A stretch of DNA of 64,000 nt from Clostridia bacterium (GTDB lineage: Bacteria; Bacillota; Clostridia; Acetivibrionales; DSM-27016): contig JAOAIJ010000041.1 in assembly GCA_026414765.1 (NCBI GenBank), positions 62,001 to 126,000 of the forward strand, in the 5' to 3' direction. Numbering within the stretch: position 1 is the first letter of the stretch; each line of letters begins with the position of its first letter. The position numbers and the translations under genes were made by a program. The notes under the pieces are model-generated. The model worked only from the letters and a program-made list of their open reading frames with translations. It had not been told where the DNA came from and did no database searches. Positions 10,701 through 64,000 of this stretch are shown piece by piece.

Positions 10701-13700
10701 TAATAGAAGAATATATTCCTCAACATATGGAAGAGAGTGGCATAACAGTTTCTGCTCAAAATCCGGCAATTATAGTATTATCGGCAAAGACTGAAGGACA
10801 GCTTCAGGTTCAGGTGCAGCAGCTGCTTACTGTCATGGAGGAACAGAATTTTACTGACAGCAGCCTGGCAAACCTGGCTTATACGCTTCAGGTAGGGCGG
10901 GAGCACATGGAAGTACGTCTGGCGGTTATTGCAATTTCTATAAAAGAACTTAAAGAAAAACTAAATGGGTTTATGGAAGGCCGGAGTGATATAGAAGATT
11001 TGTATCACGGTCAGGTAAAGCCAAATAGAGAAGTGCTGGCTGTTTTTGCAGCTGATGAGGATTTGCAGCAAGTTGTTAATAAATGGCTGGAAAACAGGAA
11101 GTATTTAAAATTACTTGACCTATGGGTAAAAGGTCTTAACTTTGATTGGAACAACCTGTATAAGGATGCCAGGCCTTACCGTATCAGTTTGCCGACTTAC
11201 CCCTTTGCAAAAGATAAATACTGGATACCTGTGGTGAAAACCAGCATAGGTACAAGTGCAGCAAGCCACATAAACATAAACGATATTCATCCGTTAGTAC
11301 ATCAAAATACCTCTAACTTCTCGGAGCAGAGATTCAGCTCTGTTTTTACCGGTGAAGAATTTTTTCTCTCGGATCATGTCGTCAAGGGTCAAAGGGTTTT
11401 GCCCGGTGTAACATATTTAGAAATGGCGCGGGCTGCGATAGAACTGGCAGTAGAAGATTTTACAGACAGTGAGATGGGAATACGGCTGAAGGACGTAGTA
11501 TGGGCCCGTCCTGTTATTGTAGGAAAGCAGCCGCTAAAAGTCAGCATCGGTTTATATCCCGGGAGTAACGGCGAATTCTCTTATGAAATTTATAGCAAAC
11601 CTGAAATACCTGATGCAGAAAAAATAGTAAACAGCCGGGGTATTGCAGTAATTGAAAAGGCTTCCAAAGGACCGGCAGTTGATATCCATAAATTGCGAGA
11701 CGAGTGCAATATCAGCATTCTTTCATCCGGCCAGTGTTACAAAGTCTTTGAAACCAGAGGGATAGAATATGGTCCGTCCCATCGGGGGATTGAAAGACTG
11801 TATCTGGGTATGGAACAGGTAGTGGCTGAACTTGTCTTGCCTTCCCGGGTTTTAGAGACCAGGGAACGATTCGTTTTACATCCCGGCATAATGGACGCTG
11901 CTTTACAAACATGTCTGGGATTGATGGCAGGTGCAGCAGAATTTACAGATAACCTGGAAAACAGTAAGCTCAGACTGCCTTTTGCGCTCCGGGAGCTTGA
12001 AATATTCGGAACAACAGCTTATGCCAAGTGGGCTATTGCCCGCTTTAGTGACGGTAGTGCCTCTACGGACAAAGTTCAAACCTTCGATATTGATATAGCT
12101 GATGAAAATGGGGTAATTTTAGTTAGCTTCAAAAGCCTTTCGTTCAGAACCCTGGAAGTTGAAAAAGGTATTGAAGAAGCAGACGGCAGAAAAGGAATGC
12201 TTGTACTGAAGCCTTGCTGGCAAGAAGCAGCCATGGGTAATGTATTTTCAGATACTTATGAGGAGAGGGTAAAGGAATATACAAGGCATATTGTATTTCT
12301 CGGTGAGATGAAACAGGGTCTGGAGAAAAGTATTGCAGGACAGATGGCAGGATTGCAATGCCATGTTTTACATTCCAATGAACAGGACCTTGATCAACGA
12401 TATAAGAACTATACAACTCAAGTGTTTGGGGAGATACAGAGTATTCTTGGTGGTAAATCGCCAGGTAAAACCCTAATACAGATTGTAGTCCCGGTTCAGA
12501 ATGAAGGGCAGCTCCTTACAGGATTGTCAGGTTTATTGAAAACAGCTTCCTTGGAAGACCCGAAAATTATGGGCCAGCTTATAGAAGTGGATTCAGTTGA
12601 AGATGCGCCAGGAATTGTAACCAAGCTGAAAGAAAGCGGTCTGAGACTTATGGAAAAAAGAATACGGTATCAGGGTGGTAAAAGGATGATTCCTGTCTGG
12701 AGTGAAATCGAAACCTCCTCAGCTGCAATTGAAATGCCCTGGCGTGATAAGGGAGTTTACCTTATTACCGGTGGTGCCGGAGGACTTGGGCAGCTTATGG
12801 CAAAGGAAATAGCGGGTAAAGCAAGAAATGCGAAAATAATAATTACCGGACGGTCTCCGCTAAAGGAGGGCGTGCAAAACAAATTAGAGGAATTACTACG
12901 GTATGGTGACCGGATTCAATACAAACAAGCGGATATTTCTTCAAAAGAAGAGGTTGAAATACTGGTCGGAAGCATCATAAGGGACTTTGGAGGACTTAAT
13001 GGCATAATCCATTGTGCAGGCGTAATCCGCGACAACTTTATTATTAAGAAAACCATGGACGAAATTTCTGAGGTGATGGCACCCAAGGTTTCCGGGCTGT
13101 GGAATCTCGACCAGGCAACCAGGGATATGTCCCTAGATCACTTTATTCTGTTTTCTTCCGGAGCGGCAGACATGGGGAACATCGGTCAGGCAGATTACTC
13201 TGCAGCCAATGCCTTTATGAATGCTTATGCAGGTTACAGGAACAGCCTGATGTCATTGAAAAGGCGTAGTGGGAAAACTTTGTCAATCCTTTGGCCGTTA
13301 TGGAAAGAAGGCGGAATGCGGGTAGATGACCTAACAGAAAAAAATATGGCTAAAAATTTGGGGATTACACCTCTTTCCACAACAAACGGGATTCAGGCTC
13401 TATATAAAGGCTTATCCTCCGGAAATGACTGCATAATGGTGGCGGAGGGAAATCTCAGCCAAATGAGGCAGAAACTATTGTCTTCACTTTCATCACAATC
13501 AATGAAGCCGGAGCCGAAACTCGTCACAAGGCCCAAAACCTCTGCAGAGCTTCCTGATGAAGCAAGTCTAAAAGACAATATAGCCGGTTACTTGAGGGAG
13601 ATGGTTGCCGATACGCTGAAAATCTCTCCCGGAAGTCTAAATAACAATGAAAGCTTTGATAAATACGGATTAGACTCAATTATTGTCGTTGAAATAAATA

Positions 13701-16498
13701 ATAAGCTGGAAAAAGATTTTGGCAATCTATCAAAAACACTATTTTTCGAATATAGTACCATAGATGAATTAGCTGATTATTTTGTGAAAACTCATAAGGA
13801 AGTTTTGTTAAGGCTTTTTACAGCAGAAGAAACTACTGTACCTGGAGATAGTTCAGGACTGATACCTTCGTCAAGCGGGAAGCTCCCACAAGCTGTCCCC
13901 AAGCCAAAACGAGTGGAATATCTTGCGAAGCAGGCCAATGATTACAATTGCGTAAAAGCAAATTATTCCGGCCAGTCGGGCAGCAATACACTGCAGGTAC
14001 CGCAAGAATCCAGTATTACTGACTTCCTTATAAGACAAATTGAAAATGATAACTTAACTCTTGATGATATTATTGCATTACCATGCTGCGATATTATCAC
14101 TACAAAAGATAAATCCATTAAAAAAGATGATTGCAGGAAAACCGGTGAACCTGAACCCTGTGGTGATTCATCGGATTATGTGTTAATTCATGAGAAGGAG
14201 TTGCAGAATAAACCTGTGCTCACCAGCCTGGTTGAAGAAATCGACAGGGACAATCCGCCGGTGGGATATGAACGTTTACTCTACCAGCACTTTTTCATAT
14301 CCGCTAAGCAAAAGAAATACTTAAGGCTGATGGTTGATGAGCCCGATCAACTTATTGTTCCCTTTATGCCAATAGATCCGGTCAGTTATAAGGAGTTGCG
14401 GGTCTTTTGCAAAAAGAATAATAAAAAACTGCTTGTAGTAGATTCTTATCATGATTGGATCAGCTCAGAGCAAACAAGGCTTATTCCGTTAGGAGTATGG
14501 CAGGATATAGATATAAATCAGTTTACCCTGGCCGGAAACAAAATGAGAAAATTACGGTATCTGGTAGAAAAATTCAGAAACTCCGGCGATGTAAAAATTA
14601 TCGAGTTTACTCCCGGGTTAAAGCTATCTCTGAATGAGATGCGCGGCTTAATGATGAAGTGGTGTGAAGGAAAGAAAAACATCATAAAGCATACTTTTGT
14701 CTGTATGCAGGAACTGTTGAAAAGGACTCTGCCTTCCGGATACAGGGCATTCTTAACCTATCACAATGATAAATTATGTACGGTTATAGTAATCGAACAT
14801 GGCACCAATGGAATGTACGTTATGGATCAGGAGTTCTATGATCCTAAGAACGCTCCACTGGGTCATATGGAGTATTCTATTACTGAGATTATCGGATTTT
14901 TGAAAAAAGAAAAGGCGAATATTTTTTCCCTTGGACTGACATGGTATCCCTTTGCCTTTGAAGACTATCCACAGAAGGACCCGGAAGGATGGGCATGGCT
15001 AAAAGAGCAATACAGTAAACAAACTCTGTTAAGCAGAATATTTCACCAAGGTGAAACCAACTATCAATTCAAAAAGAAGTTTGGGATATCGGGAGAGCCT
15101 GTTTTGGCGTATTTGCCCAAAGAAGAGCCTTTTTCATTATTATTCAAATACTGGCCGATTTTCTATCAAAATTCCCTTACTGCCGATCAACTCAGTGAGC
15201 AAATCAGCCGTATACCGTTGTCAGACCTGGAAAGCGGATATACAGGCAGGGAAAGCAGTCAGACAAAGTATGACTTGACTGACAGGCAGGGTCGCCAATT
15301 ACTGATATCAAGCACGACAAAACTGGATCAAATTGACTACCATGACAATCCACTGGATTTAGCCACGGACTCATGGTATATGGTCCGATCCGATGCCGTA
15401 AAGGAACGCACTGTCCATTTGAAGGCTAAAAGTCCAGTAGGGGGTTCCGAAATAATCAAAACCATATTTCCTTTTAAGCACATAATCTTAACAGACAGAG
15501 GACGGAGTGCAGAAGAGCTTTTTTACAAGGTATTCCAGAAGACCGGGAAAAAAATACTGAGCGCCATACCCTGGGCTTCCACCCTTATGCATCAACTAAA
15601 TAACGGGTTTGAAGTGATTGAGCTGCCCCATCCTTCTGTACAGGAACCTGATTCAGCTTATTTATTTAAAGGGGAGCTGGATATAGAGGCATTAATGGAA
15701 CAATTACGGAAAGATAGCCGAAATATTGCTATGGTTGGCCTGGAAGTACTTAGTAATGCCAGCGGAGGGAATCCGGTCAGCTTGTCGCACATCGGCGAGT
15801 TGAAACAGATCCTTAATCAATTTAAAATCCCGATGGTTCTGGATGCTTCGAGGATAGTCAGGAATGCGTTCCTGATAAAGCAATATGAAGAGAATTGCCG
15901 GCAAAGCAACATTTGGGATATTGTAAGACAGACTTCAAAGCAAGCTGACTATATTGTAACCAGCTTGACCAAAGATTTTGCAGTACCGGTTGGCGGTCTC
16001 ATTGCAACCAATGATGACCGGCTGGCTGAAGATATTAAGAGGGCTCAAGCGAGTCAAAGCCTTTTGATTACTCCTGAGGAGGAGCGCATGATTATCAACG
16101 CATTATCGGATCAGGAAAAGATAACGGGGCTTATTGAGGAGCAGCTTACATTTGCCAGGAGCCTGCAAGATATGCTGATTCAGGCAAAAGCACCGATTTT
16201 GCAGCCGGCTTGTGGCCATGCAATAGTAATAAATGTTTCACAGCTGGTTTATGGAGAAAGTAATACTCAGAAAAAAGAAACATTCCTTAAAGAACTGTTT
16301 ATCGAAACGGGGATTCGAGGAGGTATCCACCAGGTTGGCAAACAGAAGAATACCCTTCTGGATCAATGTATTCGTCTGGCTCTGCCATTGGGTTTAGCGA
16401 GTGAAAATAGAAGGATTATATTTGATAAGCTAAAGCATTTTTTCGCGGCCAGGCAAGTGCCTGAATCAGATAAGGAGGTAGCTGTTTGTCATGTCTGA
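7736..16498 (+). CDS. trans-AT polyketide synthase: MT-ACP / KS-DH-KR-ACP-DUF2156-tryptophanase-like (rest of m2, m3)
   Basis: 2920 residues. Domains: C-methyltransferase 36-378 with SAM motif EVGAGTGGT near 194; ACP 419-502 (Ser457, GIDSI); KS 555-992 (Cys730, TMCSSS; EAHGTGT; SNIGH); DH 1184-1472 (His1214, Asp1387); KR 1485-1919 (TGGAGGLG, Tyr1821); ACP 1944-2022 (Ser1981, GLDSI); a polar Cys-containing linker to about 2150; DUF2156/GNAT-like domain 2156-2479; tryptophanase-like PLP domain 2509-2905. The N-terminal MT-ACP completes module m2, whose KS-DH-KR ends the previous protein, so m2 should yield an alpha-methylated unit. m3 would deliver an enoyl-ACP to the two extra domains, described separately. 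The stop overlaps the next gene by 8 nt. The two C-terminal domains are very unusual in a PKS and are the main novelty of the window. Confidence 0.96.
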   Translation: MEQVSIDIPAYIEGMKSEFNSHMTQLNDLLCRLLRGQLCSMGMFRQGKVLVNKPGSRIGLDNLYDKWLEASISFLTEKKYVTCDGESYTLLNSKSVDIDAVWQEWKQKKEAWLKNSDMSARVTLLESTLRALPDILTGKVPATDIIFPDSSMALVEGVYKNNKVADCFNEVLADAVVYYIKEQLKQNPAGRIRILEVGAGTGGTSAMVLRKIKPFRDQIQEYCYTDISRAFLLHAEREYGEQNPFLSCKLFNVEAPVAGQGIKAGEYDIVIAANVLHATKNIRQTIRNAKATLRKQGLLLINELSDNSLFAHLTFGLLEGWWLYDDPVLRIPGSPLLSQATWQRVLEGEGFQSVFHPAWKIHDLGQQIIVAESDGVVRQKQQIKPGITPLKQAAKDQIFKEQSMKPRLHIEQGSGVKDNLLRDKSKAYLVKMVAEVLKIPRQKIDSSEPLESYGIDSILVVQITSALRKSFDNISSTLLFECQTIDALSEHFVKTQRDSLIKLLGLEEQQPLEKENQMQSVVPSVTPAVTGKKPRFLKYSPSSETVKLSPEPFKEPIAVIGMSGRYPLANNLKEFWGNLGAGRNCITEIPEDRWPLEDFYHPDPKEAVAQGKSYSKWGGFIEGFAEFDPLFFNISPRETLNMDPQERLFLEECWKVLEDAGYTRVQLSKQYHNRIGVFAGITKADVSLYSSELWKQGEKIHPRSSFSSVANRVSYLFNFRGPSMPIDTMCSSSLTAIHEACENIHRGECDLAIAGGVNLYLHPLSYVELCAHQMLSEDGQCKSFGRGGNGFVPGEGVGTILLKPLSKAVADHDNIYAVIRGTKINHGGKTNGYTVPSPTAQAELIKEAIGKADIHSRAITYIEAHGTGTELGDPIEIKGLTQAFEKDTADTGFCSIGSVKSNIGHLESAAGIAGVTKIILQMKNGQLAPSINSKELNPNIDFSKTPFVVQQDLAPWNRPFIEINGEAGEYPRIAGISSFGAGGSNAHIVIEEYIPQHMEESGITVSAQNPAIIVLSAKTEGQLQVQVQQLLTVMEEQNFTDSSLANLAYTLQVGREHMEVRLAVIAISIKELKEKLNGFMEGRSDIEDLYHGQVKPNREVLAVFAADEDLQQVVNKWLENRKYLKLLDLWVKGLNFDWNNLYKDARPYRISLPTYPFAKDKYWIPVVKTSIGTSAASHININDIHPLVHQNTSNFSEQRFSSVFTGEEFFLSDHVVKGQRVLPGVTYLEMARAAIELAVEDFTDSEMGIRLKDVVWARPVIVGKQPLKVSIGLYPGSNGEFSYEIYSKPEIPDAEKIVNSRGIAVIEKASKGPAVDIHKLRDECNISILSSGQCYKVFETRGIEYGPSHRGIERLYLGMEQVVAELVLPSRVLETRERFVLHPGIMDAALQTCLGLMAGAAEFTDNLENSKLRLPFALRELEIFGTTAYAKWAIARFSDGSASTDKVQTFDIDIADENGVILVSFKSLSFRTLEVEKGIEEADGRKGMLVLKPCWQEAAMGNVFSDTYEERVKEYTRHIVFLGEMKQGLEKSIAGQMAGLQCHVLHSNEQDLDQRYKNYTTQVFGEIQSILGGKSPGKTLIQIVVPVQNEGQLLTGLSGLLKTASLEDPKIMGQLIEVDSVEDAPGIVTKLKESGLRLMEKRIRYQGGKRMIPVWSEIETSSAAIEMPWRDKGVYLITGGAGGLGQLMAKEIAGKARNAKIIITGRSPLKEGVQNKLEELLRYGDRIQYKQADISSKEEVEILVGSIIRDFGGLNGIIHCAGVIRDNFIIKKTMDEISEVMAPKVSGLWNLDQATRDMSLDHFILFSSGAADMGNIGQADYSAANAFMNAYAGYRNSLMSLKRRSGKTLSILWPLWKEGGMRVDDLTEKNMAKNLGITPLSTTNGIQALYKGLSSGNDCIMVAEGNLSQMRQKLLSSLSSQSMKPEPKLVTRPKTSAELPDEASLKDNIAGYLREMVADTLKISPGSLNNNESFDKYGLDSIIVVEINNKLEKDFGNLSKTLFFEYSTIDELADYFVKTHKEVLLRLFTAEETTVPGDSSGLIPSSSGKLPQAVPKPKRVEYLAKQANDYNCVKANYSGQSGSNTLQVPQESSITDFLIRQIENDNLTLDDIIALPCCDIITTKDKSIKKDDCRKTGEPEPCGDSSDYVLIHEKELQNKPVLTSLVEEIDRDNPPVGYERLLYQHFFISAKQKKYLRLMVDEPDQLIVPFMPIDPVSYKELRVFCKKNNKKLLVVDSYHDWISSEQTRLIPLGVWQDIDINQFTLAGNKMRKLRYLVEKFRNSGDVKIIEFTPGLKLSLNEMRGLMMKWCEGKKNIIKHTFVCMQELLKRTLPSGYRAFLTYHNDKLCTVIVIEHGTNGMYVMDQEFYDPKNAPLGHMEYSITEIIGFLKKEKANIFSLGLTWYPFAFEDYPQKDPEGWAWLKEQYSKQTLLSRIFHQGETNYQFKKKFGISGEPVLAYLPKEEPFSLLFKYWPIFYQNSLTADQLSEQISRIPLSDLESGYTGRESSQTKYDLTDRQGRQLLISSTTKLDQIDYHDNPLDLATDSWYMVRSDAVKERTVHLKAKSPVGGSEIIKTIFPFKHIILTDRGRSAEELFYKVFQKTGKKILSAIPWASTLMHQLNNGFEVIELPHPSVQEPDSAYLFKGELDIEALMEQLRKDSRNIAMVGLEVLSNASGGNPVSLSHIGELKQILNQFKIPMVLDASRIVRNAFLIKQYEENCRQSNIWDIVRQTSKQADYIVTSLTKDFAVPVGGLIATNDDRLAEDIKRAQASQSLLITPEEERMIINALSDQEKITGLIEEQLTFARSLQDMLIQAKAPILQPACGHAIVINVSQLVYGESNTQKKETFLKELFIETGIRGGIHQVGKQKNTLLDQCIRLALPLGLASENRRIIFDKLKHFFAARQVPESDKEVAVCHV
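14200..15170 (+). other. DUF2156 / lysylphosphatidylglycerol-synthetase C-terminal (GNAT-like) domain embedded in PKS module m3
   Basis: Residues about 2156-2479 of the second PKS protein. Several landmarks match, from memory, the C-terminal catalytic half of MprF-type aminoacyl-phosphatidylglycerol synthases: a QFTLAGNKMRKLR segment (family: TLxGKxxxxLR), a later MKWCEGKKN helix (family: WLxGRK), an IFSLGLTWYPFA strand (family: FNLGMAPLS), and a closing YQFKKKFGISGEPVLAYLPK segment (family: LRKYKEKYxPxWEPRYLAY). No membrane segment is present. Known members transfer aminoacyl groups from aminoacyl-tRNA; other DUF2156 proteins have no assigned role. Placement after an ACP and before a PLP lyase suggests that it docks, adds or transfers an amino acid or sulfur nucleophile onto the ACP-bound chain. 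That role is inference. Confidence 0.78.
15260..16450 (+). other. Tryptophanase / tyrosine phenol-lyase-like PLP domain (beta-eliminating lyase family) at the end of m3
   Basis: Residues about 2509-2905 (about 400 residues, close to full family length). Sites that line up with tryptophanase/TPL: phosphate-binding DRGRSAE (Gly2589-Arg2590; family QGRAAE); SNASGGNPVSL (Asn2674; family NxAGGQPVS); DASRIVRNAFLIK (Asp2703, pairing with the PLP pyridine nitrogen; family DSARFAENAYFIK); SLTKDFAVPVGG (Lys2746, Schiff-base lysine; family SAKKDAxVxxGG); CGHAIVI; and IRLALP (Arg2880, the family's alpha-carboxylate-binding arginine). The PLP and amino-acid binding set looks intact. The GDEAYAG tyrosine loop of TPL is not evident, so leaving-group chemistry may differ. 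Expected reaction type: beta-elimination from a cysteine-like (C-S) or other beta-substituted amino acid. The closest functional precedent I know is the SH domain of leinamycin-family PKSs. Confidence 0.85.
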
Positions 16499-55000: not shown

Positions 55001-56908
55001 AATTATGGTCCGGGATATAGGGGTATAAAAGAAGTATATGCAGGAGCAAATCATATACTGGCAAGATTATCCCTGCCTCCAGCACTATCTGACACACTGG
55101 AGCATTTCACTCTCCATCCGAGCTTGTTGGATTCGGCAGTTCAGGCATCAATTGCTTTAAATAGAAAAGGTGATGACTCCGGTAAATTCCTAAAACCTGC
55201 ACTGGCATTCTCTTTGAAAAAGCTTGAGGTAGCAGGGAAATGTACATCAAAAGTGTGGGCCTTGATCAAACCTGGAGAAAAAAGCCAATCAGCGGAGATA
55301 CAGAATCTTGATATTGATTTGTGCAATGAAAAAGGAGTTGTTTTAGTCCGGATGCAGGGCCTGACCACAAGAACGTTTGAGGAGAAAACCCCTGCAGAAA
55401 TAAATACTAATGGAGCCCTTACGGGAAATATCACGCTTATGCCCGTATGGGATCCGATTCAAATAAAACAAGACCAAAAACCTTCAGTCAGGGAAGGATG
55501 TACTGTGATAATAGGATGTAACCAGGATGCAGAAAAACTTATCAAGCAGTGTTATCCTGATGCTCACCTGCTGAAAATCGGAGCGTTCGATACTACGGAG
55601 GAGATACCCAAAAAGCTTCAGGCGTATGGATTAATTGGTCATATCATATGGATTGCTCAAAACAAGCAGATTGAATCCGTAACCTCGGACGAAGTGATAG
55701 ATGGGCAGAATCAAGGGGTTATTTTCTGCTTTAGAGTAATTAAAGCTCTCCTTAGTTTGGGCTATGGCACCAGAGAATTAAGCTGGAGTGTGATTACTAC
55801 GCAATGCCAGCCTGTTTATAAAAATGAAACGGTCAATCCGGTAAATGCAAGCCTTCACGGGTTAATTGGAACGATGTCTAAGGAATATCCCGGCTGGAAA
55901 ACCTCTATTATAGACCTTGAGGAAAATTGTGACTGGCCGGTACCCGAAATATTCACTATACCTGCAGAATTGTATGGGGAGTCTTTGGCTTACCGGGGCC
56001 GGATGTGGTATAAACAACGGCTGATCAATGCTGATCTCCCTTCGGAAATGAAGACCGTGTATAAAACGGAAGGGGTATATATCGTAATAGGAGGCGCAGG
56101 CGGCCTGGGTGAGGTGTGGAGCGAATACATGCTCCGCAGCTACCGAGCTAGAATTGTCTGGATTGGCCGGAGGCCGATTGATGAACAGATTCAGGCAAAA
56201 CTAGATAAACTGGCTGCTCTGGGGCCTGCTCCAATCTATATTTCGGCAGATGCCTCCGATAAGAATTCACTTGAACATGCATATATGGAAATAAAGCAGA
56301 TTTACCACCGGATAAACGGTGTTATTCATGCCGCAGTCGGGGCAATGGATCAAAGCCTGACAATAATGGAAGAGAAATTGTTCCGGGAGGGACTGTCTGC
56401 AAAAGTTGATCTGAGTGTATATTTAGCTCAGGTGTTTGGAAAAGAGCCTTTAGACTTTATTATATTCTTTTCTTCCTTAGCTGCATTTTCCAAAGATCAC
56501 GGGAAGAGCAGCTACTGTTCAGGCAGTGTTTTTGAAGATGCATTTGCACACCAGCTGGCTCAGGAATGGACATGTATTGTAAAAGTGATGAACTGGGGAT
56601 ACTGGGGTGACGTTGGTATCGGAGGTGCTATACCGGAAGCATTTAAAAAACGGCTGATAAAAGCGGGTACAGGCCATATTGATCCTGAGGGGGCTATGAT
56701 AGCTCTGGAGAAATTACTGGCCGGGCCGGTTAATCAAATGGCATTAATCAATACAACCAAACCAATAAATACAAAAGATATACCGGATGAGACAATTTTA
56801 GTTTATCAGGCCGGGGTTTCCTCAAACATCGGGAAGATTCAGCGTTACATGCCATTAAGAGATGAAATGGTTGAGAAAATCAAATTGGAAATGGGGATGA
56901 TTTCTTGA
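46082..56908 (+). CDS. trans-AT polyketide synthase: DH-ACP-DH* (rest of m11), m12 KS-DH-KR-ACP, m13 KS-DH-KR
   Basis: 3608 residues from the ATG at 46082. m11 remainder: DH 7-273 (His19 in HTVNGEALLP; Asp190), ACP 289-362 (Ser323, GLESA), then a second, altered DH-fold domain 392-660 (separate entry). m12: KS 690-1123 (Cys865, TMCSGS; EAHGTGT; SNIGH), DH 1309-1593 (His1339, Asp1510), KR 1607-2023 with a slightly unusual cofactor loop (AGGSGDLG), ACP 2052-2133 (Ser2089). m13: KS 2186-2623 (Cys2361), DH 2812-3103 (His2844, Asp3017), KR about 3115-3560 (GGAGGLG). The m13 KR belongs to the same subclass as the KRs of m2 and m5, the other methyltransferase modules. As in m2, its MT and ACP are on the next protein. 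The stop overlaps the next start (TTGA). Confidence 0.95.
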   Translation: MKKVFSLSISKENPIVKNHTVNGEALLPGLAYIDMLYQLAKQGLETGITGLCLKHMTIYSPLIVREGSPVQIRITFTKKSQAWSISVEGSETGAQQDPSESRLYAAAELHENAVLKKQQIDILGLKRSAKECIDLESVYGEAGKRGLKHQGVIKAKGCIYVIDSGCLVELCIDENQYKSMDTLFHPALIDGAAMAASVLADSNSSDNSELFIPLYYESFSGRELLQTHCYALVDTSSIQTANDIRKLDINFFNLEGELVAELKEITTKQIRSKGQASQGKGMGESRISDSIEEILRKIFAGYIKKKDSDIDLDTVFFELGLESAQLLFIVKDIENALGLSLNPTLLFENSNLQELIKYLEQKIAMKEFSSPITEINQKEVFKPANNNGTLASDTFIFYEDEAYLRDHLVFGKPALMGVTHPCLALEAYLRQNPGALPVGLKNIQFIGGPVTLEKKEKVHVRVRFCGDSNQTTFSTEYYITHPKESKPCCSGKCIKPVEVPGKVIDIYSMIKESKTVDDETINKSYHIVKNFKVGPMLQNVEAAYRYGENTLISKIGLANKLKKGDISRFTFDPLLLNCCYLGIADEDNKKTDNILVPLMIERLTVFREMTEDAYVINTIRSKRDGFISIDAVVLTDMGEIIAEISNASLREVMNPSMLHNAVFDSDVLAEKVSSDESGSDGRPRIAEGLDIAIVGISGRYPQAYDVNEFWHNLREGKDCITEIPEDRWDWKEYYSEDRKSTGNIYSKWGGFIDDMDKFDPGFFNISPREAEFLDPQERLFLEHCWMAMEDAGYTRQGLQKGQETDMPGSVGVYAGVMYQEYPLYAAEATLKGQPMGLAAGISSIATRVSYFCNFHGPSIALDTMCSGSLTSIYLACQALKDKRIDAALAGGVNLTIHPNKYLMLSQGQFISSKGHCESFGIGGDGYIPGEGVGVLMLKRLSDAKRDKDHIYGVIKGIAVNHGGKSSGYTVPNPKAQRMVITQALEEAGFDPRTISYIEAHGTGTKLGDPIEISALTEAFGNFTDDKQFCMIGSVKSNIGHCESAAGVAGVIKVLLQMKHGKIVPSLHSSILNPNIDFNATPFMVNQKLVDWKRPTVEGTEQPLRAGISSFGASGLNAHMVIEEYQPEGVQDYITINAQNPAAIVLSARNRERLTEQVERLLHAIKEKKLTNASLADLAYTLQTGREAMEERLALIVSSIKELEDKLLDFLKGKGNIDMLYHGQSKKNNDSVSLFTVDEDLQEAVNKWIEKRKYTKLLSLWVKGLSFDWDMLYGSTKPYKLSLPTYPFAKERYWVHQTRSSENNLKESVIHPLVHKNTSDISELKFTSSFSGKEFFLTDHVVRGKKVLPGAAYLEMAREALERAGVGKEGRAGLRMKNVVWVQPVTVEEQPVELHIGLYPDSDGGIAFDIYSFTEENGAESIVHSQGTGMPGGAVEIPNLDIKALLGQFTESIDASRCYQVLENMGIEYGPGHRGIDKIYLGNNQVLAKIFLPSSVSGTKDQYVLHPSIIDSALQASVGLVLGSGSSRPSLPFALEELEIFGSCTPEMWALISYQTNMQAGENLHKLDIDLCNEDGEICLRLKGYTSRLLNDGTDSSDSSAKTGTVLFQPYWKECADIIENPVNKCMQRFVALCEPEGINMENFKSQMSGVNCIILQSEQEAIEERFNTYAVRLFEEIQCILKNKPKDKILIQVIISGQKDKQLLSGLSGLLRTAQLENPLLTGQLIEVEAWENSEVIAGKLMDSSLCPDDHRIRYQEGKRWVLDWREAEASQNLPPIPWKDGCLYLIAGGSGDLGMIFAAEIARQVRTPTLILTGRSPLSKEKQDKLAELEAKGARVIYRQVDIAEKQAVDALFQNIREDFGSLHGIIHSAGVTKDNFIIKKNSKEFSEVLAPKVKGLVNLDKGSKDMSLDFFILFSSGAGAMGNIGQADYASANGFMDAYAAYRNELAGANERHGRTLTINWPLWEDGGMYVDEATQKMWQNLGMSAIKTSAGIQAFYRSFDSGTDQVLVVEGDVSRLRRIFKGQSYGDEVTVTSPYAKKEQEGTEIAQDLLQEQAINYFKSLLSSIIKLPASQIEADAPMEKYGIDSVMVMHMTNRLEESFGSLSKTLFFEYQNIRDLTGYFLENHHQQLVSLVGIKQKDLLAGMNGPNSLTGLLKPVAGRRQRSNFVSLSDTRKEERPDRALDIAIIGVAGRYPQARNQQEFWNNLSGGRDCITEIPRERWDYSLYPGQNKNETDKTYSKWGGFLDDADKFDPYFFNISPREAEIMDPQERLFLQCVYETLEDAGYTREPLNKCQGSGMEGNVGVFVGVMYEEYQLYGAQEQILGKPVVLPGNPSSIANRISYFFNLHGPSMAIDTMCSSSLTAIHLACQSLQQGGCELAVAGGVNVSIHPNKYLLLGQGNFLSSRGRCESFGRDGDGYVPGEGVGAVLLKPLAEAIKDNNQIYGVIKGSAINHGGKTNGYSVPNPNAQANVIAQAVKSAGIDPRAISYLEAHGTGTSLGDPIEITALSKVFRKYTPDKEFCAIGSVKSNIGHCESAAGIAGVTKVLLQLKYQQLVPSLHSEVLNPNIDFADTPFIVQQKLQQWKRPVLQINGIKREYPRIAGISSFGAGGSNAHIIIEEYIPGSQSEASNLTEQSLALDQPVIILLSARNMEQLREQAKQLLEYVIEQKYSDHLLADVAYTLQVGREAMEERMAVVVSSFEDLQEKLREFVEGKESIDDFYLGQVNKNSDSVALLNSDKDLQDDIDIFFTERKYDKLLNLWVNGLKCDWNKLYGAVKPRIMSLPTYPFARKRCWAPQIDHRSSNSYANPIHPMVHKNTSRFSEIRFTSSFTGNEFFLFDHVVKGNRIFPGVAYLEMVIAAAMEAAGLSPEDGAGINLENIVWIRPIAVQDHPVEIHIGLSLQNDGDVQYQIYSEDIEMKSQKIVYSQGTVTFDSKRSVSSLDLKKLLAQSTLQTADPDQYYKVFEEMGINYGPGYRGIKEVYAGANHILARLSLPPALSDTLEHFTLHPSLLDSAVQASIALNRKGDDSGKFLKPALAFSLKKLEVAGKCTSKVWALIKPGEKSQSAEIQNLDIDLCNEKGVVLVRMQGLTTRTFEEKTPAEINTNGALTGNITLMPVWDPIQIKQDQKPSVREGCTVIIGCNQDAEKLIKQCYPDAHLLKIGAFDTTEEIPKKLQAYGLIGHIIWIAQNKQIESVTSDEVIDGQNQGVIFCFRVIKALLSLGYGTRELSWSVITTQCQPVYKNETVNPVNASLHGLIGTMSKEYPGWKTSIIDLEENCDWPVPEIFTIPAELYGESLAYRGRMWYKQRLINADLPSEMKTVYKTEGVYIVIGGAGGLGEVWSEYMLRSYRARIVWIGRRPIDEQIQAKLDKLAALGPAPIYISADASDKNSLEHAYMEIKQIYHRINGVIHAAVGAMDQSLTIMEEKLFREGLSAKVDLSVYLAQVFGKEPLDFIIFFSSLAAFSKDHGKSSYCSGSVFEDAFAHQLAQEWTCIVKVMNWGYWGDVGIGGAIPEAFKKRLIKAGTGHIDPEGAMIALEKLLAGPVNQMALINTTKPINTKDIPDETILVYQAGVSSNIGKIQRYMPLRDEMVEKIKLEMGMIS
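47255..48060 (+). other. Altered DH-fold domain after the m11 ACP (candidate enoyl-isomerase or pyran-synthase type)
   Basis: The domain keeps the first-motif His407 and Gly411 (HLVFGKPALM), but the motif Pro is Met416. The second motif reads FDPLLLNCC, with Asn577 where DHs have the catalytic Asp. Loss of Asp with retention of His is, to my knowledge, the pattern of trans-AT enoyl-isomerase domains, which shift a double bond rather than remove water. Pyran synthase domains are also DH-derived and are the main alternative; an inactive remnant is the third. It occupies the place that the KR holds in the parallel module m9 (DH-ACP-KR). Confidence 0.6.
56893..56896 (+). promoter_or_regulatory. 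Ribosome binding site GGGG for a TTG start
   Basis: GGGG lies 8 nt before the TTG at 56905. With the TTGA stop/start overlap it supports translational coupling of the two halves of module m13. No ATG is in a better position: the next in-frame ATG codon falls inside the methyltransferase domain. Confidence 0.5.
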
Positions 56909-59900
56909 AGGATATTATCTGCAAGCTGCTATGGTGCCAGCTACAATCCATCGGCATGCTAAGAAAAAAGCATTCAATTGTTAAAGAAGATAAGAAGGAA
57001 AGTGGAATCATTGATTTGTATGACCGATGGCTGGATGAATCTGTTTCTGTATTGGAACGGAACCATTATCTAACCTTAGAAGGGGAAGTATGTTTGGTAC
57101 AGGATACGTTGCTAATTGACCCAGACTCTGTATGGGCCGAGTGGGAGATGGCTAAGAGCGAATTAGTGAAAAATAAAAAGAATGTGGCGCAACTTAACCT
57201 GGTTGAGGCTACTATGCGTTCATTGCCGGAAATCCTTACAGGGAAAAAAGCGGCAACGGATATCCTCTTTCCCAATTCCTCCATGGAACTGGTGGAAGGC
57301 ATATATAAAAATAATCCTGTTTCGGACTATTTTAATGAAGTATTGTCCGACTCAATAATCGCGTATTTAAGAGAGAGGATCGAACAAGATCCGAAAGCTG
57401 AAATACGCATTTTGGAAATTGGTGCTGGTACAGGCGGTACAAGCGCTTCAAACTTTTTAAAGCTTCGACCCTATGGTGGGCATATTCAGGAATATTGCTA
57501 TACCGATCTTTCAAAAGCCTTTTTATTATTTGCCGAAAGGGAATATGGGCCGGTCAATCCATTCCTAACATACAAAATACTGAATGTTGAAGAACCTTTA
57601 AACAGGCAGGGGATTGAAACAGGGGTATATGATATTGTCGTTGCTGCTAATGTATTGCACGCCACAAAAAATATAAGGAAAACCCTGAGAAATGTGAAAG
57701 CAGCTCTGAAAGCTAACGGGTTGCTCCTGGTAAATGAAATCAGTGAGAATAGTTTATTTACTCACTTAACCTTTGGTTTAACCGAAGGGTGGTGGAAATA
57801 TGAAGATGCGGAACTGAGGATTCCTGGCTGCCCGGGGCTGTATCCTGAAACCTGGAAGAAGATCTTTGAGCAAGAGGGATTTCCGGAAGTCTTCTTTCCG
57901 GCGCAAAAAGCTCATAGCTTAGGACAACAGATAATCATTGCTGAAAGTGATGGAGTTGTACGGCAGCAAAATACGGCACAAGCAGCTGTGAACTTTAGGA
58001 AAGCTGTTGACAAGAATATGTATTCATCCGGTGATACCTGCCTGAAAATCACAAACAAACCGGTTCAGGGTGTGAATATGATCACAGGTGCTCAGATGAG
58101 GAAAAATCAGGGGGCAGGAGTAAGCATTCAATTGGTTAAAGACTTTGCTAAAACAGCTGTAAAAGAGAGTATTGCTCAGTCGCTAAAAATGGATGAGGAT
58201 TTGATTACAGACGATCAAAGCTTTTCTGAATATGGAGTAGACTCAATTATTGCCGTGAATTTGGTAAATTTAGTCAATCAGCGATGTAAGACTAAACTGG
58301 AAACGACAGTATTGTTTGAGTACAATAATGTGAATAACCTTAGCCGGTATATTGCTGAAGCACATGAATCCGCTATAGTTTCGATACTCAATGAAGATAA
58401 CCCGGGTTCAATAGAAGTTGATGCCGGTTTTCAGGGAGAAAATGCAGATCAAGCGACACAAACTATTTCTCTTATAAGGTATGGAGATAGGGAGACTGCA
58501 AAAGCCTTGGAAATATCAAAAGAGACAATTGCCGTAATCGGAATGTCCGGACGCTTCGCTGAATCCCAGACAGTAGATGACTTATGGAAGCATTTGGCCA
58601 ATGGTGCGAACTTAATTAAGGAGGTCAGCAGGTGGGATCTTTCGGAGCGCTACCAGGAAACTCAACGTGAGGGGAAGAGTTTTTGCAATTATGGCAGTTT
58701 TCTGGATAATATTGATAAATTTGACCCTGTTTTCTTTAATATTTCGGGAATTGAAGCAACCTACATGGACCCTCAGCAGCGGTTATTCCTTGAAGAATCC
58801 TGGAAAGCATTGGAGAATGCAGGCTACGTCGGAGATTCCATTCAGGAAAGCAAATGCGGAGTTTATGCAGGATGTGGCTCAGGCGATTACCAGAATTTAT
58901 TTATAAACAATCCCCCTGCTCAATCAACCTGGGGTAACCATAACTCCGTGATTCCGGCAAGAATTGCGTATCATTTGAATTTGCAGGGGCCGGCAATCGC
59001 TGTTGATACAGCGTGTTCAAGTTCTTTGGTAGCTATACATTTGGCGTGCCAGGGCTTATGGACCAGAGAAACAGATATGGCTCTGGCAGGGGGTGTTTTT
59101 GTGCAGTCAACCCCCGGTTTTTATTTATCAACTAATAAAGCAGGCATGTTATCTCCCACAGGACGATGTTCAGCATTTGACCAGGCAGCAGACGGTTTTG
59201 TTCCTGGTGAAGGTGTAGGTGTAGTCGTATTGAAACGTCTTAGCGAGGCATTAGCTGACGGAGACCATATATATGGTGTCATCCGCGGATCGGGAATTAA
59301 TCAGGACGGTTCAACCAACGGTATTACAGCTCCTAGTGCAGCATCTCAGGAAAAACTGATTTGTGAAGTTTATAATTCTTTTAGTATAAATCCGGAAAAT
59401 ATTCAAATGGTTGAGGCCCACGGAACAGGTACAATATTGGGGGATCCTATAGAATTCAGTGCGTTGACCAGTGCCTACCGCAAATATACACAAAAGCAGG
59501 GATACTGCGCACTGGGGTCTATTAAAACAAATCTGGGACATACTACGGCTGCCGCAGGAGTTGCCAGTTTGATAAAGGTTTTACTTTCACTAAAAAATAA
59601 GAAAATTCCGCCATCGATCAATTTTAGAAAAGGGAATCCTAAAATCGATTTTGACAACAGTCCTTTTTATGTAAGTACCAGTTTAAGGGATTGGGAGGCT
59701 GGGGAAAATTCCCCGCGTTCCGCTGCTATCAGTTCTTTTGGCTTTAGCGGAACAAATGCTCACTTAGTTATCGAGGAACCGCCAGAAGTAGTCAGGAAGC
59801 ATCAGGAGAAGGCTGGCTACTTGATTGTTTTATCGGCGCGTACTTCTGAGCAGCTGTATAAACAGGTACAGCAACTGATAAGTTTTTGTGACGAAAACAC

Positions 59901-62631
59901 CGGGGTGGACTGCGGGAATATCAGTTATTCACTATTATTGGGCAGAAAGTTCTTTAATCATCGGCTGGCGTGTGTAGTCCGCAGTCTGAATGAACTGGTC
60001 AAACTGCTCACAAAGTGGCTGGAAAAAGGTAAAACTCCTCAGGTATATGTGTCTAACCTACAGGAAAACCCTTGCCGCGGGCAAATTTATTTGGAACAGT
60101 ACGGAAATATGTGCATAAGGAATTGTTTGAACACAACTGATGCAAATGAGTATTTAGGGAACTTATCCGTTATTGCAGACTTATTTATCCAAGGTTATTT
60201 ACTGGAATTCAAATACCTGTTTCCTCTTAATGAGTATTCAAGAATTCCAATGCCTGGCTATCCGTTCGCAAGAGACCGGTATTGGGTTTCTGATGGTGAA
60301 ACAAAGGTTAAGGATGTTTCGCCGATGCTGCTTTATTCACCAGCAGTACCTGCAAAGCAAACAGTCATGTCCCGATTATCGGAACCTTCTCCAGTAAAGA
60401 GGACTGAGAAAACTAATTGCATTTCCCTCAATTCCCTGTCAGATGTCCGGAATGTGCCAGAGATGCAGCCAAAGGTCAATAGCAAACAAATTTCGTTGCA
60501 ACCTGCTGCCCGGCTTATTCCGTTACAATCCCTAAAGGCTCCTGTATCAGAAAAGCCTGATGTCCGGAATACTTCCACTCAACCCGGCAAAGTTAAACTG
60601 ACTGGCTTATTAATGACGTCGGAAGCATTACAGGAAGGGTTGAGAGACAGCCTGGCAGGGATATTGTGTATCAGGCCCGAGGATATAGATGTGAATAAGA
60701 AATTTATTGAATTGGGGATGGACTCCATTATCGGCGTGGAATGGATTCAATCCATTAACAACAGATACGGTACTTCCATTGCGGTGAATAAAGCGTACGA
60801 ACATCCGACTATAGTGGAGCTTGCAGAATTCTTAGGGAGTGAGATGGGAAACCATAGCGGTGTGTCTCAGCTCATAAAAGAAAGACCAGCTGCGGCAGAA
60901 GCTGAAAGAAATAGACCTTCAAGCCTTATACAAGGGGCAGAAACACTACGGGAAGGGTTGAGAGACAGCCTGGCAGGGATATTGTGTATCAGGCCCGAGG
61001 ATATAGATGTGAATAAGAAATTTATTGAATTGGGGATGGACTCCATTATCGGTGTGGAATGGATTCAATCCATTAACAACAGATACGGTACTTCCATTGC
61101 GGTGAATAAAGCGTACGAACATCCGACTATAGTGGAGCTTGCCGAGTACCTTCAAAATCAAATCTACAAGCCGGACCAAGATGAACACAATAGTAGAGAA
61201 ACTGTACAAGAAGGAGAAGCTCAGCTCGAATTCTCCCAAACAAGCTCTGTTCAGGAACCTGTCCAGCATCCCGATTCTCACGCGGCAGCCGATATGCACA
61301 CATCATGCAATTCAAGTCCTGAGCCAAGGAGCTACTCCTTGGTTGAAGAGCAAGTCATGGATCTGATATCCGGTACTATAGGAGTTGAAAAGCAAAAACT
61401 GGATATGGACACATCTCTAAAAGACTATAACATTGATTTGTTTGATCTTGCGTACATAACAGAAAGAATACAGGCGAAAATTGGCCCGGTAATTGAAGGC
61501 GATGCGTTATACCAATGTTCTACTATCCGTGATATCTGTAATCTGTTGCAGACAGACATAAAAGGTGATGAGGAATTACTAAAAGTTCATGATATGGAAT
61601 TAGCTTCAGAAACGGGAGAGTTTCCTGAACTTATCCATCTAAATAAGAACACGGAAGGAAGGCCTGTTTTCTGGATACATGCCGGGTTGGGGGGAGTAGA
61701 TGTATACTACCCGATTGCTGAAAAAAGCAATCGCCCCTTTTATGGTATCAAGCCTCATGGCTGGTACAACGACCAGGTTCTGATACGTGGAATTCAGGCG
61801 ATAGCTTCATACTATGTGAAAATCATTCAGTCGGTGCAGCCGGAAGGACCTTATGATCTTGGCGGTTATTCGTTAGGAGGCATATTTGCCTATGAAATCA
61901 CCCGACAGCTGCAGGCAATAGGTCAGGAAGTCAGTTCTGTTGTCATAGTGGAGGCTTTTGATGACGAGGGAACAAAAAAGGTTCATGTACCGGAGTACCT
62001 TTTCAGAAAAAATACTGCACTTAATGTTATTAATACTGCCCTTTATATTTTGTGCTTGCAGGAACCCGAAAAACTGCATAAAACCCTTATTAACCAGAAA
62101 GAGATCAGCATAGACCTGGATGATGAGGAATACTTCTCTCAATTGATAAAGCTTGCAAAGACCCGGGGGTTGGCTCAAACGGAGGAGAGATTATATAAAA
62201 CTATACTGAAAACTATTGATATGCAGGATGCTTATAAGACGGGAGATGATTTTATTCTGCCTCTGCCGGCACCGGACAGGGTACAGGGCTATTTGCTGAG
62301 AAACAAGAATAGACGGTTCCTGGGAGAACTTCAACCATATTTTTCAATCAGGGAGGATTTATTATTATTGGATAATCAGAACTATTGGAAAGGCTGGAAG
62401 GCTGAAATTCCTTACTTAAAGATAATTGATGTAGATTGTCCTAACCATGTGGCAATGTTGTTAGATCCTAAAGCATATAAATCAATAGTTGATTTCTGTG
62501 AAATCTTATATTGCGGGAGCTCCGGTGTTGTAGCAGGTAAAGACTTTCAAAAGAAGAATAAAGCTGGAACTAAGAGAAGCAGTAATAAGGAAAAATCAAA
62601 AGTAGGACTATTAAGCAAGGAGGCTGACTAA
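56905..62631 (+). CDS. Terminal trans-AT polyketide synthase: MT-ACP (rest of m13), m14 KS-ACP-ACP-ACP0-TE
   Basis: 1908 residues. C-methyltransferase 1-355 (EIGAGTGGT near 171), starting almost at its first helix; ACP 411-492 (Ser447, GVDSI); KS 539-961 (Cys704, TACSSS; EAHGTGT; TNLGH); post-KS linker to about 1135; Ser/Pro-rich linker to 1237; twin ACPs 1239-1312 and 1346-1419 (Ser1274 in the first); a degenerate ACP 1476-1552; thioesterase 1572-1868 with nucleophile Ser1656 (GYSLG) and His1848 (PNHVAM); basic tail. m14 has no KR, DH or MT, so it forms a beta-keto thioester. The twin ACPs carry the DSxxxxxW signature linked to beta-branching, so the keto group is probably converted to a carbon branch before release. 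The thioesterase marks the end of the assembly line, by hydrolysis or macrocyclisation. Confidence 0.95.
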   Translation: MKDIICKLLWCQLQSIGMLRKKHSIVKEDKKESGIIDLYDRWLDESVSVLERNHYLTLEGEVCLVQDTLLIDPDSVWAEWEMAKSELVKNKKNVAQLNLVEATMRSLPEILTGKKAATDILFPNSSMELVEGIYKNNPVSDYFNEVLSDSIIAYLRERIEQDPKAEIRILEIGAGTGGTSASNFLKLRPYGGHIQEYCYTDLSKAFLLFAEREYGPVNPFLTYKILNVEEPLNRQGIETGVYDIVVAANVLHATKNIRKTLRNVKAALKANGLLLVNEISENSLFTHLTFGLTEGWWKYEDAELRIPGCPGLYPETWKKIFEQEGFPEVFFPAQKAHSLGQQIIIAESDGVVRQQNTAQAAVNFRKAVDKNMYSSGDTCLKITNKPVQGVNMITGAQMRKNQGAGVSIQLVKDFAKTAVKESIAQSLKMDEDLITDDQSFSEYGVDSIIAVNLVNLVNQRCKTKLETTVLFEYNNVNNLSRYIAEAHESAIVSILNEDNPGSIEVDAGFQGENADQATQTISLIRYGDRETAKALEISKETIAVIGMSGRFAESQTVDDLWKHLANGANLIKEVSRWDLSERYQETQREGKSFCNYGSFLDNIDKFDPVFFNISGIEATYMDPQQRLFLEESWKALENAGYVGDSIQESKCGVYAGCGSGDYQNLFINNPPAQSTWGNHNSVIPARIAYHLNLQGPAIAVDTACSSSLVAIHLACQGLWTRETDMALAGGVFVQSTPGFYLSTNKAGMLSPTGRCSAFDQAADGFVPGEGVGVVVLKRLSEALADGDHIYGVIRGSGINQDGSTNGITAPSAASQEKLICEVYNSFSINPENIQMVEAHGTGTILGDPIEFSALTSAYRKYTQKQGYCALGSIKTNLGHTTAAAGVASLIKVLLSLKNKKIPPSINFRKGNPKIDFDNSPFYVSTSLRDWEAGENSPRSAAISSFGFSGTNAHLVIEEPPEVVRKHQEKAGYLIVLSARTSEQLYKQVQQLISFCDENTGVDCGNISYSLLLGRKFFNHRLACVVRSLNELVKLLTKWLEKGKTPQVYVSNLQENPCRGQIYLEQYGNMCIRNCLNTTDANEYLGNLSVIADLFIQGYLLEFKYLFPLNEYSRIPMPGYPFARDRYWVSDGETKVKDVSPMLLYSPAVPAKQTVMSRLSEPSPVKRTEKTNCISLNSLSDVRNVPEMQPKVNSKQISLQPAARLIPLQSLKAPVSEKPDVRNTSTQPGKVKLTGLLMTSEALQEGLRDSLAGILCIRPEDIDVNKKFIELGMDSIIGVEWIQSINNRYGTSIAVNKAYEHPTIVELAEFLGSEMGNHSGVSQLIKERPAAAEAERNRPSSLIQGAETLREGLRDSLAGILCIRPEDIDVNKKFIELGMDSIIGVEWIQSINNRYGTSIAVNKAYEHPTIVELAEYLQNQIYKPDQDEHNSRETVQEGEAQLEFSQTSSVQEPVQHPDSHAAADMHTSCNSSPEPRSYSLVEEQVMDLISGTIGVEKQKLDMDTSLKDYNIDLFDLAYITERIQAKIGPVIEGDALYQCSTIRDICNLLQTDIKGDEELLKVHDMELASETGEFPELIHLNKNTEGRPVFWIHAGLGGVDVYYPIAEKSNRPFYGIKPHGWYNDQVLIRGIQAIASYYVKIIQSVQPEGPYDLGGYSLGGIFAYEITRQLQAIGQEVSSVVIVEAFDDEGTKKVHVPEYLFRKNTALNVINTALYILCLQEPEKLHKTLINQKEISIDLDDEEYFSQLIKLAKTRGLAQTEERLYKTILKTIDMQDAYKTGDDFILPLPAPDRVQGYLLRNKNRRFLGELQPYFSIREDLLLLDNQNYWKGWKAEIPYLKIIDVDCPNHVAMLLDPKAYKSIVDFCEILYCGSSGVVAGKDFQKKNKAGTKRSSNKEKSKVGLLSKEAD
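60633..60824 (+). repeat. Direct repeat copy 1: first beta-branching ACP of m14
   Basis: This 192-bp stretch recurs 318 bp downstream with a single silent difference (GGC/GGT glycine). It encodes most of an ACP with DIDVNKKFIELGMDSIIG; Ser1274 is followed six residues later by Trp1280, the DSxxxxxW feature of ACPs recognised by HMG-synthase cassettes. Confidence 0.95.
60951..61142 (+). repeat. Direct repeat copy 2: second beta-branching ACP of m14
   Basis: Second copy of the 192-bp unit, with the same Ser and the Trp six residues on. The sequence between the copies (126 bp) and after them diverges freely, so only the ACP core was duplicated or homogenised. Confidence 0.95.
61330..61560 (+). 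other. Degenerate third ACP (ACP0) before the thioesterase
   Basis: Length, helix pattern and position fit a carrier protein, but the GxDS core reads NIDL: Leu1512 replaces the phosphopantetheine Ser and Asn replaces the Gly. It cannot be pantetheinylated. It may be a structural spacer or a docking platform for the thioesterase or the beta-branching enzymes. Confidence 0.7.
61620..62510 (+). other. Type I thioesterase domain releasing the chain
   Basis: Alpha/beta-hydrolase fold: WIHAGLGG near the start, GYSLG nucleophile elbow (Ser1656) and a C-terminal His1848. The catalytic set appears complete. Whether it hydrolyses or cyclises cannot be read from the sequence. Confidence 0.9.
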
Positions 62632-62649
62632 TGATGGGGGGATAAAATT

Positions 62650-63399
62650 ATGATTAATTCTGTAGTTGATTTATGCGAAATCGGACAAGGTATTGTTCAG
62701 TTGACAATGCAGGACAGGGTTTATAAAAACGGTTTTTCCGAAGAGTTGATTGGCGGCTTGCTAATGGCCTTTGAAGAAATAAAGAATAATTCCGGATACA
62801 AGGTAGTAATTCTAACCGGATATGACAGCTACTTTTGCTCCGGCGGAACAAGGGAAGGAATGCTAAGCATACAGGCGGATAAATTGAAGTTTACCGATTT
62901 GGAAATACACAGCATTGCCTTGGATTGTCCGCTCCCGGTGATTGCTGCAATGCAAGGTCATGGTATAGGAGCCGGATTTACTTTAGGTTTATCCTGCGAT
63001 TTTGCAGTTTTGAGCAAAGAAAGTTTTTACAGCTGTAACTATATGAAATACGGTTTTACTCCAGGAATGGGTGCCAGCTATATTGTACCCCGGAAATTAG
63101 GCTTTAGCCTTGCTCAGGAATTATTATTCACTGCGGACAATTATAGCGGAGCTGAACTGGAAAGACGGGGAATTCAGTTTAAGGTTCTGCCAAGAAAGGA
63201 AGTAATGGAATATGCATGCAAACTGGCCGGAAAAATAGCGGAGAAGCCTAGAACCGCGCTAATGACTTTAAAGGAGAATCAGGTTGCACAAATAAGGGGA
63301 GAACTGGCAGAAGCTTTAAAGCTGGAATTGGAAATGCATGAGAAGACTATGTATCAACCCGGGGTAAAAGAACGGATTGCGAATCTGTTCGGAATGTAA
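62650..63399 (+). CDS. PksI-like enoyl-CoA hydratase-family decarboxylase (ECH2) of a beta-branching cassette
   Basis: 249 residues, crotonase superfamily, with a GGGGGG ribosome site at 62636-62641, 18 nt after the terminal PKS gene. The sequence closely follows PksI of the bacillaene pathway as I remember it: QDRVYKNGFS, FCSGGTREG, ALDCPLPVIAAMQGHGIGAGF, YMKYGFTPGMGASYIVP, LGFSLAQELL and MHEKT near the C-terminus. Lys80 and His230, which I recall as the PksI catalytic residues, fall at exactly those positions. It should decarboxylate the ACP-bound glutaconyl-type intermediate made after HMG-synthase addition and dehydration, leaving a methyl or exomethylene branch. The partner enzymes (HMG-CoA-synthase homologue, ECH1, decarboxylating KS, donor ACP) are not in the window. 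The likely substrate carriers are the twin ACPs just upstream. Confidence 0.9.
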   Translation: MINSVVDLCEIGQGIVQLTMQDRVYKNGFSEELIGGLLMAFEEIKNNSGYKVVILTGYDSYFCSGGTREGMLSIQADKLKFTDLEIHSIALDCPLPVIAAMQGHGIGAGFTLGLSCDFAVLSKESFYSCNYMKYGFTPGMGASYIVPRKLGFSLAQELLFTADNYSGAELERRGIQFKVLPRKEVMEYACKLAGKIAEKPRTALMTLKENQVAQIRGELAEALKLELEMHEKTMYQPGVKERIANLFGM

Positions 63400-63468
63400 T
63401 GTTAATAGTTTACTGCGTTGAGCTAGTAAGTTTTAGTTTATCAAGCTAAATAAAATGGGGGTATTTAA
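63400..63468 (+). other. Short intergenic gap
   Basis: 69 bp between the ECH gene and the carbamoyltransferase, the longest non-coding stretch in the window. It is AT-rich and contains GGGGG at 63457-63461 as a ribosome site for the next gene. I see no stable hairpin with a U-tract and no convincing promoter, so the next gene is probably co-transcribed. Confidence 0.5.
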
Positions 63469-64000
63469 ATGAAACGTAACTATATAGGTTTAGCAACATC
63501 CTTCAGGGATCCGTCAATTACGATTGTTAATTCAAAAGGAGAAGTCGTTTTTGCTGAGGCTTCAGAGAGATATGTGCAGTATAAAAGGGCTGCACAGATG
63601 TCTCCCGACCAGTTCGGATATTATTTGTACCACTTGCTTAAGACACATACGGAGGCAGGGGCTGAATTGGTTGTAGCTCACAGCTGGAGTGATAGAGCTG
63701 CTGAAAGTATTGAAAAGAATCTGAAACATGCCACTGAAGCCAGTGCAAAATTATCAAATGAAAACAGTGAAGATGCTTTAGTCCTGAAAAAATATTATGA
63801 TGACCAAAAATACATGTCGTACCATGCTATTGAGTCAATCAAAAATGCTTCAAAAAACCTTGAGGCTATGGTTAGTATGCTGGATGGCTTTAACCTTGTT
63901 TCAGTCAGGCGTTATGACCATCATCTGACACATGCAGCTACCGCATGCTATAGCAGCCCCTTTAAAGAAGCCGCATGTGCTGTATTGGACGGTTATGGAG
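63469..64000 (+). CDS. O-carbamoyltransferase, NodU/CmcH family (3'-partial)
   Basis: The ATG at 63469 opens a frame that runs off the window (177 codons visible; family members are about 550-600 residues). The N-terminus (NYIGLATSFRDPSITIVNSKGEVVFAEASERY) and the later DHHLTHAATACYSSPFKEAACAVLDGYG match the Kae1-like domain of carbamoyltransferases, where the DHHxxHA histidines bind metal. Such enzymes use carbamoyl phosphate and ATP to carbamoylate a hydroxyl. Position after the PKS suggests a tailoring step on a retained alcohol of the polyketide. The C-terminal half and any second domain cannot be seen. Confidence 0.88.
   Translation, partial: MKRNYIGLATSFRDPSITIVNSKGEVVFAEASERYVQYKRAAQMSPDQFGYYLYHLLKTHTEAGAELVVAHSWSDRAAESIEKNLKHATEASAKLSNENSEDALVLKKYYDDQKYMSYHAIESIKNASKNLEAMVSMLDGFNLVSVRRYDHHLTHAATACYSSPFKEAACAVLDGYG

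Follow-up and report, generated by a model that had tools for sequence, protein, structure and literature searches.

Near-identical Trp-flagged carrier domains as the probable beta-branching site in the last module of a clostridial trans-AT polyketide synthase

Background

In polyketide beta-branching, tandem acceptor ACPs are reported to be generally very alike and to raise flux, and the Trp flag is diagnostic, but the members of a tandem need not be equivalent (PMC7618002). Leinamycin-family compounds, ripostatin and bongkrekic acid are known examples of branching in a terminal module (PMC7618002, PMC12560621); in bongkrekic acid the terminal branch stays carboxymethyl although an ECH2 is present (PMC12560621). 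The design of the locus described here is thus already known: other bacteria also have tandem Trp-flagged ACPs that are nearly identical, and branching in a terminal module has been described.

The window analyzed here is a stretch of 64,000 nucleotides (C41:62001-126000) from a draft genome of 4.56 Mb in 53 contigs; positions given below without a prefix are those of the window. Near its right end lies a pair of almost identical carrier domains, originally predicted to be a beta-branching doublet. It is probable that these twin ACPs are the acceptor pair of an HMG-ACP synthase (HMGS) in the terminal module of a trans-AT polyketide synthase (PKS), that they work in parallel, that the resulting branch is a methyl at C-3, that their cores have been kept alike by conversion, and that a third ACP beside them is a relic.

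Organization of the cluster and its terminal module

ORFs and Pfam domains place most of a trans-AT PKS line within the window; stand-alone acyltransferases and an enoylreductase of the PfaD type are encoded upstream. Also upstream of the PKS on this contig, at C41:28082-40540 (L011:4082-16540), translations indicate a small Nif11-like leader peptide (L011:9566-9886) flanked by a run of seven or more similar radical-SAM-like proteins, which has the look of a distinct peptide (RiPP) cluster.

The terminal PKS protein (56905-62631; 1908 aa, first codon TTG) is encoded on the forward strand, as are the domains, linker and ECH2 gene of the window described below. Pfam assigns it a cMT and an ACP, which form the end of the previous module, followed by the terminal module: KS, ACP, ACP, a Ser-less ACP and a thioesterase (TE). 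The KS (58522-59625; PF00109/PF02801 at aa 540-907) has intact DTACSSS, HGTGT and GH motifs, and the TE (61660-62550, right end approximate; PF00975) retains its GYSLG motif. A Pfam domain search found no KR or DH between the KS and the ACPs of the terminal module, so the ketone stays on the chain; an unreduced beta-keto group is what HMGS chemistry requires of an acceptor ACP. The pair does lie in the last, TE-bearing module, as had been predicted, but the domain adjoining the TE is the Ser-less ACP and neither member of the pair.

The twin carrier domains

A repeat search of positions 59000-64000 found one direct repeat family, with copies of 206 nt at 60622-60827 and 60940-61145 (spacing 318). 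The copies differ at 5 bases, exactly one of them in the 192-nt core. These cores, 60633-60824 and 60951-61142, are identical at 191/192 positions (99.5%) and encode the same 64 aa of carrier domain; the sole difference, C at 60735 and T at 61053, gives GGC and GGT, both Gly, and is silent. The original prediction of two 192-bp units with a single silent difference, spanning 60633-61142, is therefore confirmed. From the repeat and its translation, the first ACP (60622-60843; also matched by PF00550) carries its Ser at 60724-60726 and its Trp at 60742-60744, and the second (60940-61161) carries them at 61042-61044 and 61060-61062. Both cores read GMDSIIGVEW, which puts the Trp at Ser+6 in each unit, again as predicted; this is the Trp flag of an HMGS acceptor. 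The fetched regions of the genome gave 91 carrier-domain hits, and only four of these have Trp at this position, namely the twins and a pair on contig C39. Among solved chains, the closest to the second ACP are those of the mupirocin ACP didomain (2L22) and PksL (5ENY).

The other ACPs of the line had been described as well diverged. This holds inside the window, where the next best pair is about 66% identical in amino acids, but not for three tandem ACPs just upstream of it (C41:59896-60765; L009:15896-16765), which lack the Trp flag, share 87-95% protein identity and have linkers that match in part. Highly similar carrier domains are thus not unique to the twin site in this PKS line.

The third carrier domain (61348-61548; PF00550, 36.5 bits), which the original prediction did not list, translates as DYNIDLFDL where the Ser would be expected and is taken to be an inactive ACP. 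The Ser is kept in the homologues L066, L067 and L048: in homologous terminal modules (G022, G021 and the C43 cluster of the same genome) a single carrier domain with its Ser precedes the TE. A scan of genome contigs with the Ser-less ACP plus TE turned up no relative, and relatives were taken from genomes of the same order. Insertion of the doublet in place of the module's original TE-proximal ACP, which would then have decayed to a Ser-less relic, is a reasonable history. Ser-less carrier-like domains are also present at C42:143224, C42:164582 (L050, L051) and C31:48612 (L061), each directly 5' of a C-methyltransferase and an active ACP.

Origin of the near-identity

We compared 93 pairs of Trp-flagged ACPs in loci drawn from many bacteria. 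In several pairs the cores match each other as closely as those of the twins do, and in a tree of Trp-flagged ACPs 28 of 81 adjacent pairs fall in a clade holding only their own locus. Young or homogenised Trp-flagged pairs are common, not universal. In four Paenibacillus loci, positional orthologues are 97-100% identical and paralogues 79-89%, which indicates that no recent conversion has occurred there. Concerted evolution in biosynthetic clusters is reportedly a familiar theme.

The near-identity of the twins had been attributed to recent duplication or gene conversion. Recent tandem duplication of one ACP with its linker, rather than homogenisation of an older pair, would account for the single silent difference in 192 nt, and pairs clearly formed in this way exist: in L085, L091 and L145 the linkers match too, with z of 38 and more. 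Such an event should leave the inter-ACP linker matching one flank, but the linker here (60828-60939) is unrelated both to the sequence before copy 1 and to that after copy 2 (z of -1.3 and 0.1 in local alignment against shuffles), and we consider tandem duplication improbable. Because the linkers are unrelated while the cores differ by one silent base, conversion is preferred; judged from the sequence of this one genome, conversion limited to the domain core, or the pasting-in of a core copy, would best explain the pattern. The second copy might also have been created by the assembly. The draft is in 53 contigs, and both C39 and C46 end inside KS stretches; against this, a single long open frame holds the two copies, each side of which has a different sequence, repeat misassembly usually collapses copies and rarely adds one with new flanks, and tandem Trp-flagged pairs are common elsewhere. 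An artefact is accordingly extremely unlikely. The doublet was also considered as a copy of the C39 doublet, and this was rejected, the two being only about 55% identical in amino acids.

Beta-branching genes

A gene for ECH2, a PksI/CurF-like decarboxylase (62650-63399; NF005496/PRK07110, 336.8 bits against a cut-off of 215), starts 18 nt past the end of the PKS gene; its best solved match is PksI (E 3.1e-96), followed by CurF. Outside the window, about 6.4 kb past the PKS gene on the same contig, are genes for HMGS (C41:131053-132330) and ECH1 (C41:132321-133094). The HMGS has PksG as its best solved match (E 1.6e-221), also matches CurD and contains NACYSG, as in the PksG/CurD type with its catalytic Cys. 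ECH1 matches PksH (E 3.5e-111), so that ECH1 and ECH2 are of the PksH and PksI types. A genome lacking an HMGS cassette would have spoken against the original prediction; HMGS, ECH1 and ECH2 all occur in this very cluster. The Trp flags, the cassette genes and the make-up of the module agree in supporting HMGS-dependent branching at the twin ACPs. The prediction had also called for a decarboxylating KS and a donor ACP alongside HMGS and ECH1; neither was recognised in C41 as assembled, and this contig ends about 600 nt past ECH1.

A whole-genome KS search listed 67 matches. One of them, at C46:24954-26186, has the active-site sequence GGASASG, with Ser replacing Cys, and is the only such KS in the assembly. 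It belongs to a complete HMGS-ECH1-ECH2-ACP-KS(Cys to Ser) cassette at C46:21788-26186 (L046:1788-6186), in which identity to the C41 counterpart is 80% for HMGS, 72% for ECH1 and 66% for ECH2. A free KS at C43:68213 was examined as a decarboxylating KS and rejected, its active-site Cys being kept. We infer that the donor ACP and KS come from the second cassette on C46 or are encoded in an unassembled gap beyond the end of C41. The second Trp-flagged ACP pair of the genome lies at C39:142469 and 142814 (L053); the break at the end of C39 and that at the start of C46 each fall within a KS, at compatible positions, and the two contigs may carry parts of one cluster. No overlaps between contig ends were found that would extend C41 or join C39 to C46.

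Two further genes of the region likely encode tailoring enzymes: a NodU-type carbamoyltransferase right after ECH2 (63469 onward; L010:3469-5226) and, before HMGS, a PhpK-like B12 radical SAM protein (L010:7358-8980; 551.5 bits, with a family cut-off of 600).

Proposed mechanism and alternatives

In the proposed mechanism, the terminal KS would make a beta-ketoacyl chain on either of the two equivalent ACPs, which would act in parallel, and the HMGS would add a two-carbon unit from the donor ACP to the beta-carbon. Dehydration by ECH1 and decarboxylation by ECH2 would give a 3-methyl-2-enoyl chain, and the TE would then release the branched product. Gene conversion confined to the domain core would keep the twins nearly identical. 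A more detailed version of this history, in which the doublet was spliced into an ordinary KS-ACP-TE terminal module, the Ser-less ACP was kept as a spacer or for TE docking, conversion holds the cores alike and a second beta-branching cluster of the genome lends the acetyl donor (decarboxylating KS and donor ACP), is offered as a tentative and rather doubtful elaboration.

The outcome of branching and the division of labour between the ACPs could each be read differently. With an ECH2 present, and no flagged site but the twin pair found in the cluster, a C-3 methyl is the most likely branch, ahead of a carboxymethyl. The TE might instead release the chain before ECH2 acts, and the carboxymethyl branches of bongkrekic acid and ripostatin (PMC12560621) lend this some weight; an idle ECH2, however, would have no other use when the twins are the only flagged site found, and its gene sits directly 3' of the PKS gene, so that a carboxymethyl product seems possible but unlikely. 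As to the ACPs, leinamycin-type lines have a terminal module 8 that operates in series (PMC7618002), and here an extra carrier domain adjoins the TE, so that the first ACP might serve extension and branching and the second or third hand the chain to the TE. Yet active ACPs with identical cores can hardly differ in enzyme recognition, the third ACP, lacking the Ser, cannot hold a chain, and in leinamycin the ACPs are unlike each other and carry no flag (PMC7618002). We regard operation in series as quite improbable, and infer that the twins work in parallel.

Comparison with known systems

From the locus, a clostridial polyketide branched at C-3, beside its carboxyl, is predicted, which aids structure prediction. 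Identical cores between unrelated linkers, with a Ser-less ACP beside the TE, would also provide a small natural case of the insertion of beta-branching ACPs and of their uniformity, useful to those who splice such domains.

The locus shares tandem Trp-flagged acceptor ACPs and the same HMGS, ECH1 and ECH2 families with the mupirocin didomain (2L22) and the bacillaene PksL ACPs, which are served by PksG/PksH/PksI-type cassettes. It differs from mupirocin and PksL in that the doublet lies in the TE-bearing last module and is followed by a Ser-less ACP, in the 99.5% DNA identity of its cores, and in that donor ACP and decarboxylating KS were not seen in the cluster.

With leinamycin-type lines it has in common a terminal module with tandem ACPs, HMGS-dependent beta-branching and a TE. 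The leinamycin-type ACPs, in contrast, act in series, have diverged from each other and do not carry the Trp flag, whereas the cores here are identical and flagged; nor is the KS-ACP-ACP-DUF-SH-TE arrangement present, there being no DUF-SH in the terminal module. A DUF-SH-like didomain does occur elsewhere in the line: at 14393-16294, the end of the protein encoded at 7736-16498, matches to PF09924 and PF01212 (beta-eliminating lyase) resemble the leinamycin-type DUF-SH (thiocysteine lyase) didomain, although this protein of the clostridial line is an early and not the terminal one. The didomain suggests that the product bears sulfur, and DUF-SH outside the leinamycin family has already been described (PMC8479088).

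Bongkrekic acid module 11 and the ripostatin terminal module likewise place a beta-branch in the last module, beside the released carboxyl (PMC12560621). Ripostatin also has a TE, whereas bongkrekic acid lacks one and ends in an atypical KS (PMC12560621). Both of these branches stay carboxymethyl (PMC12560621), in contrast to the methyl proposed here.
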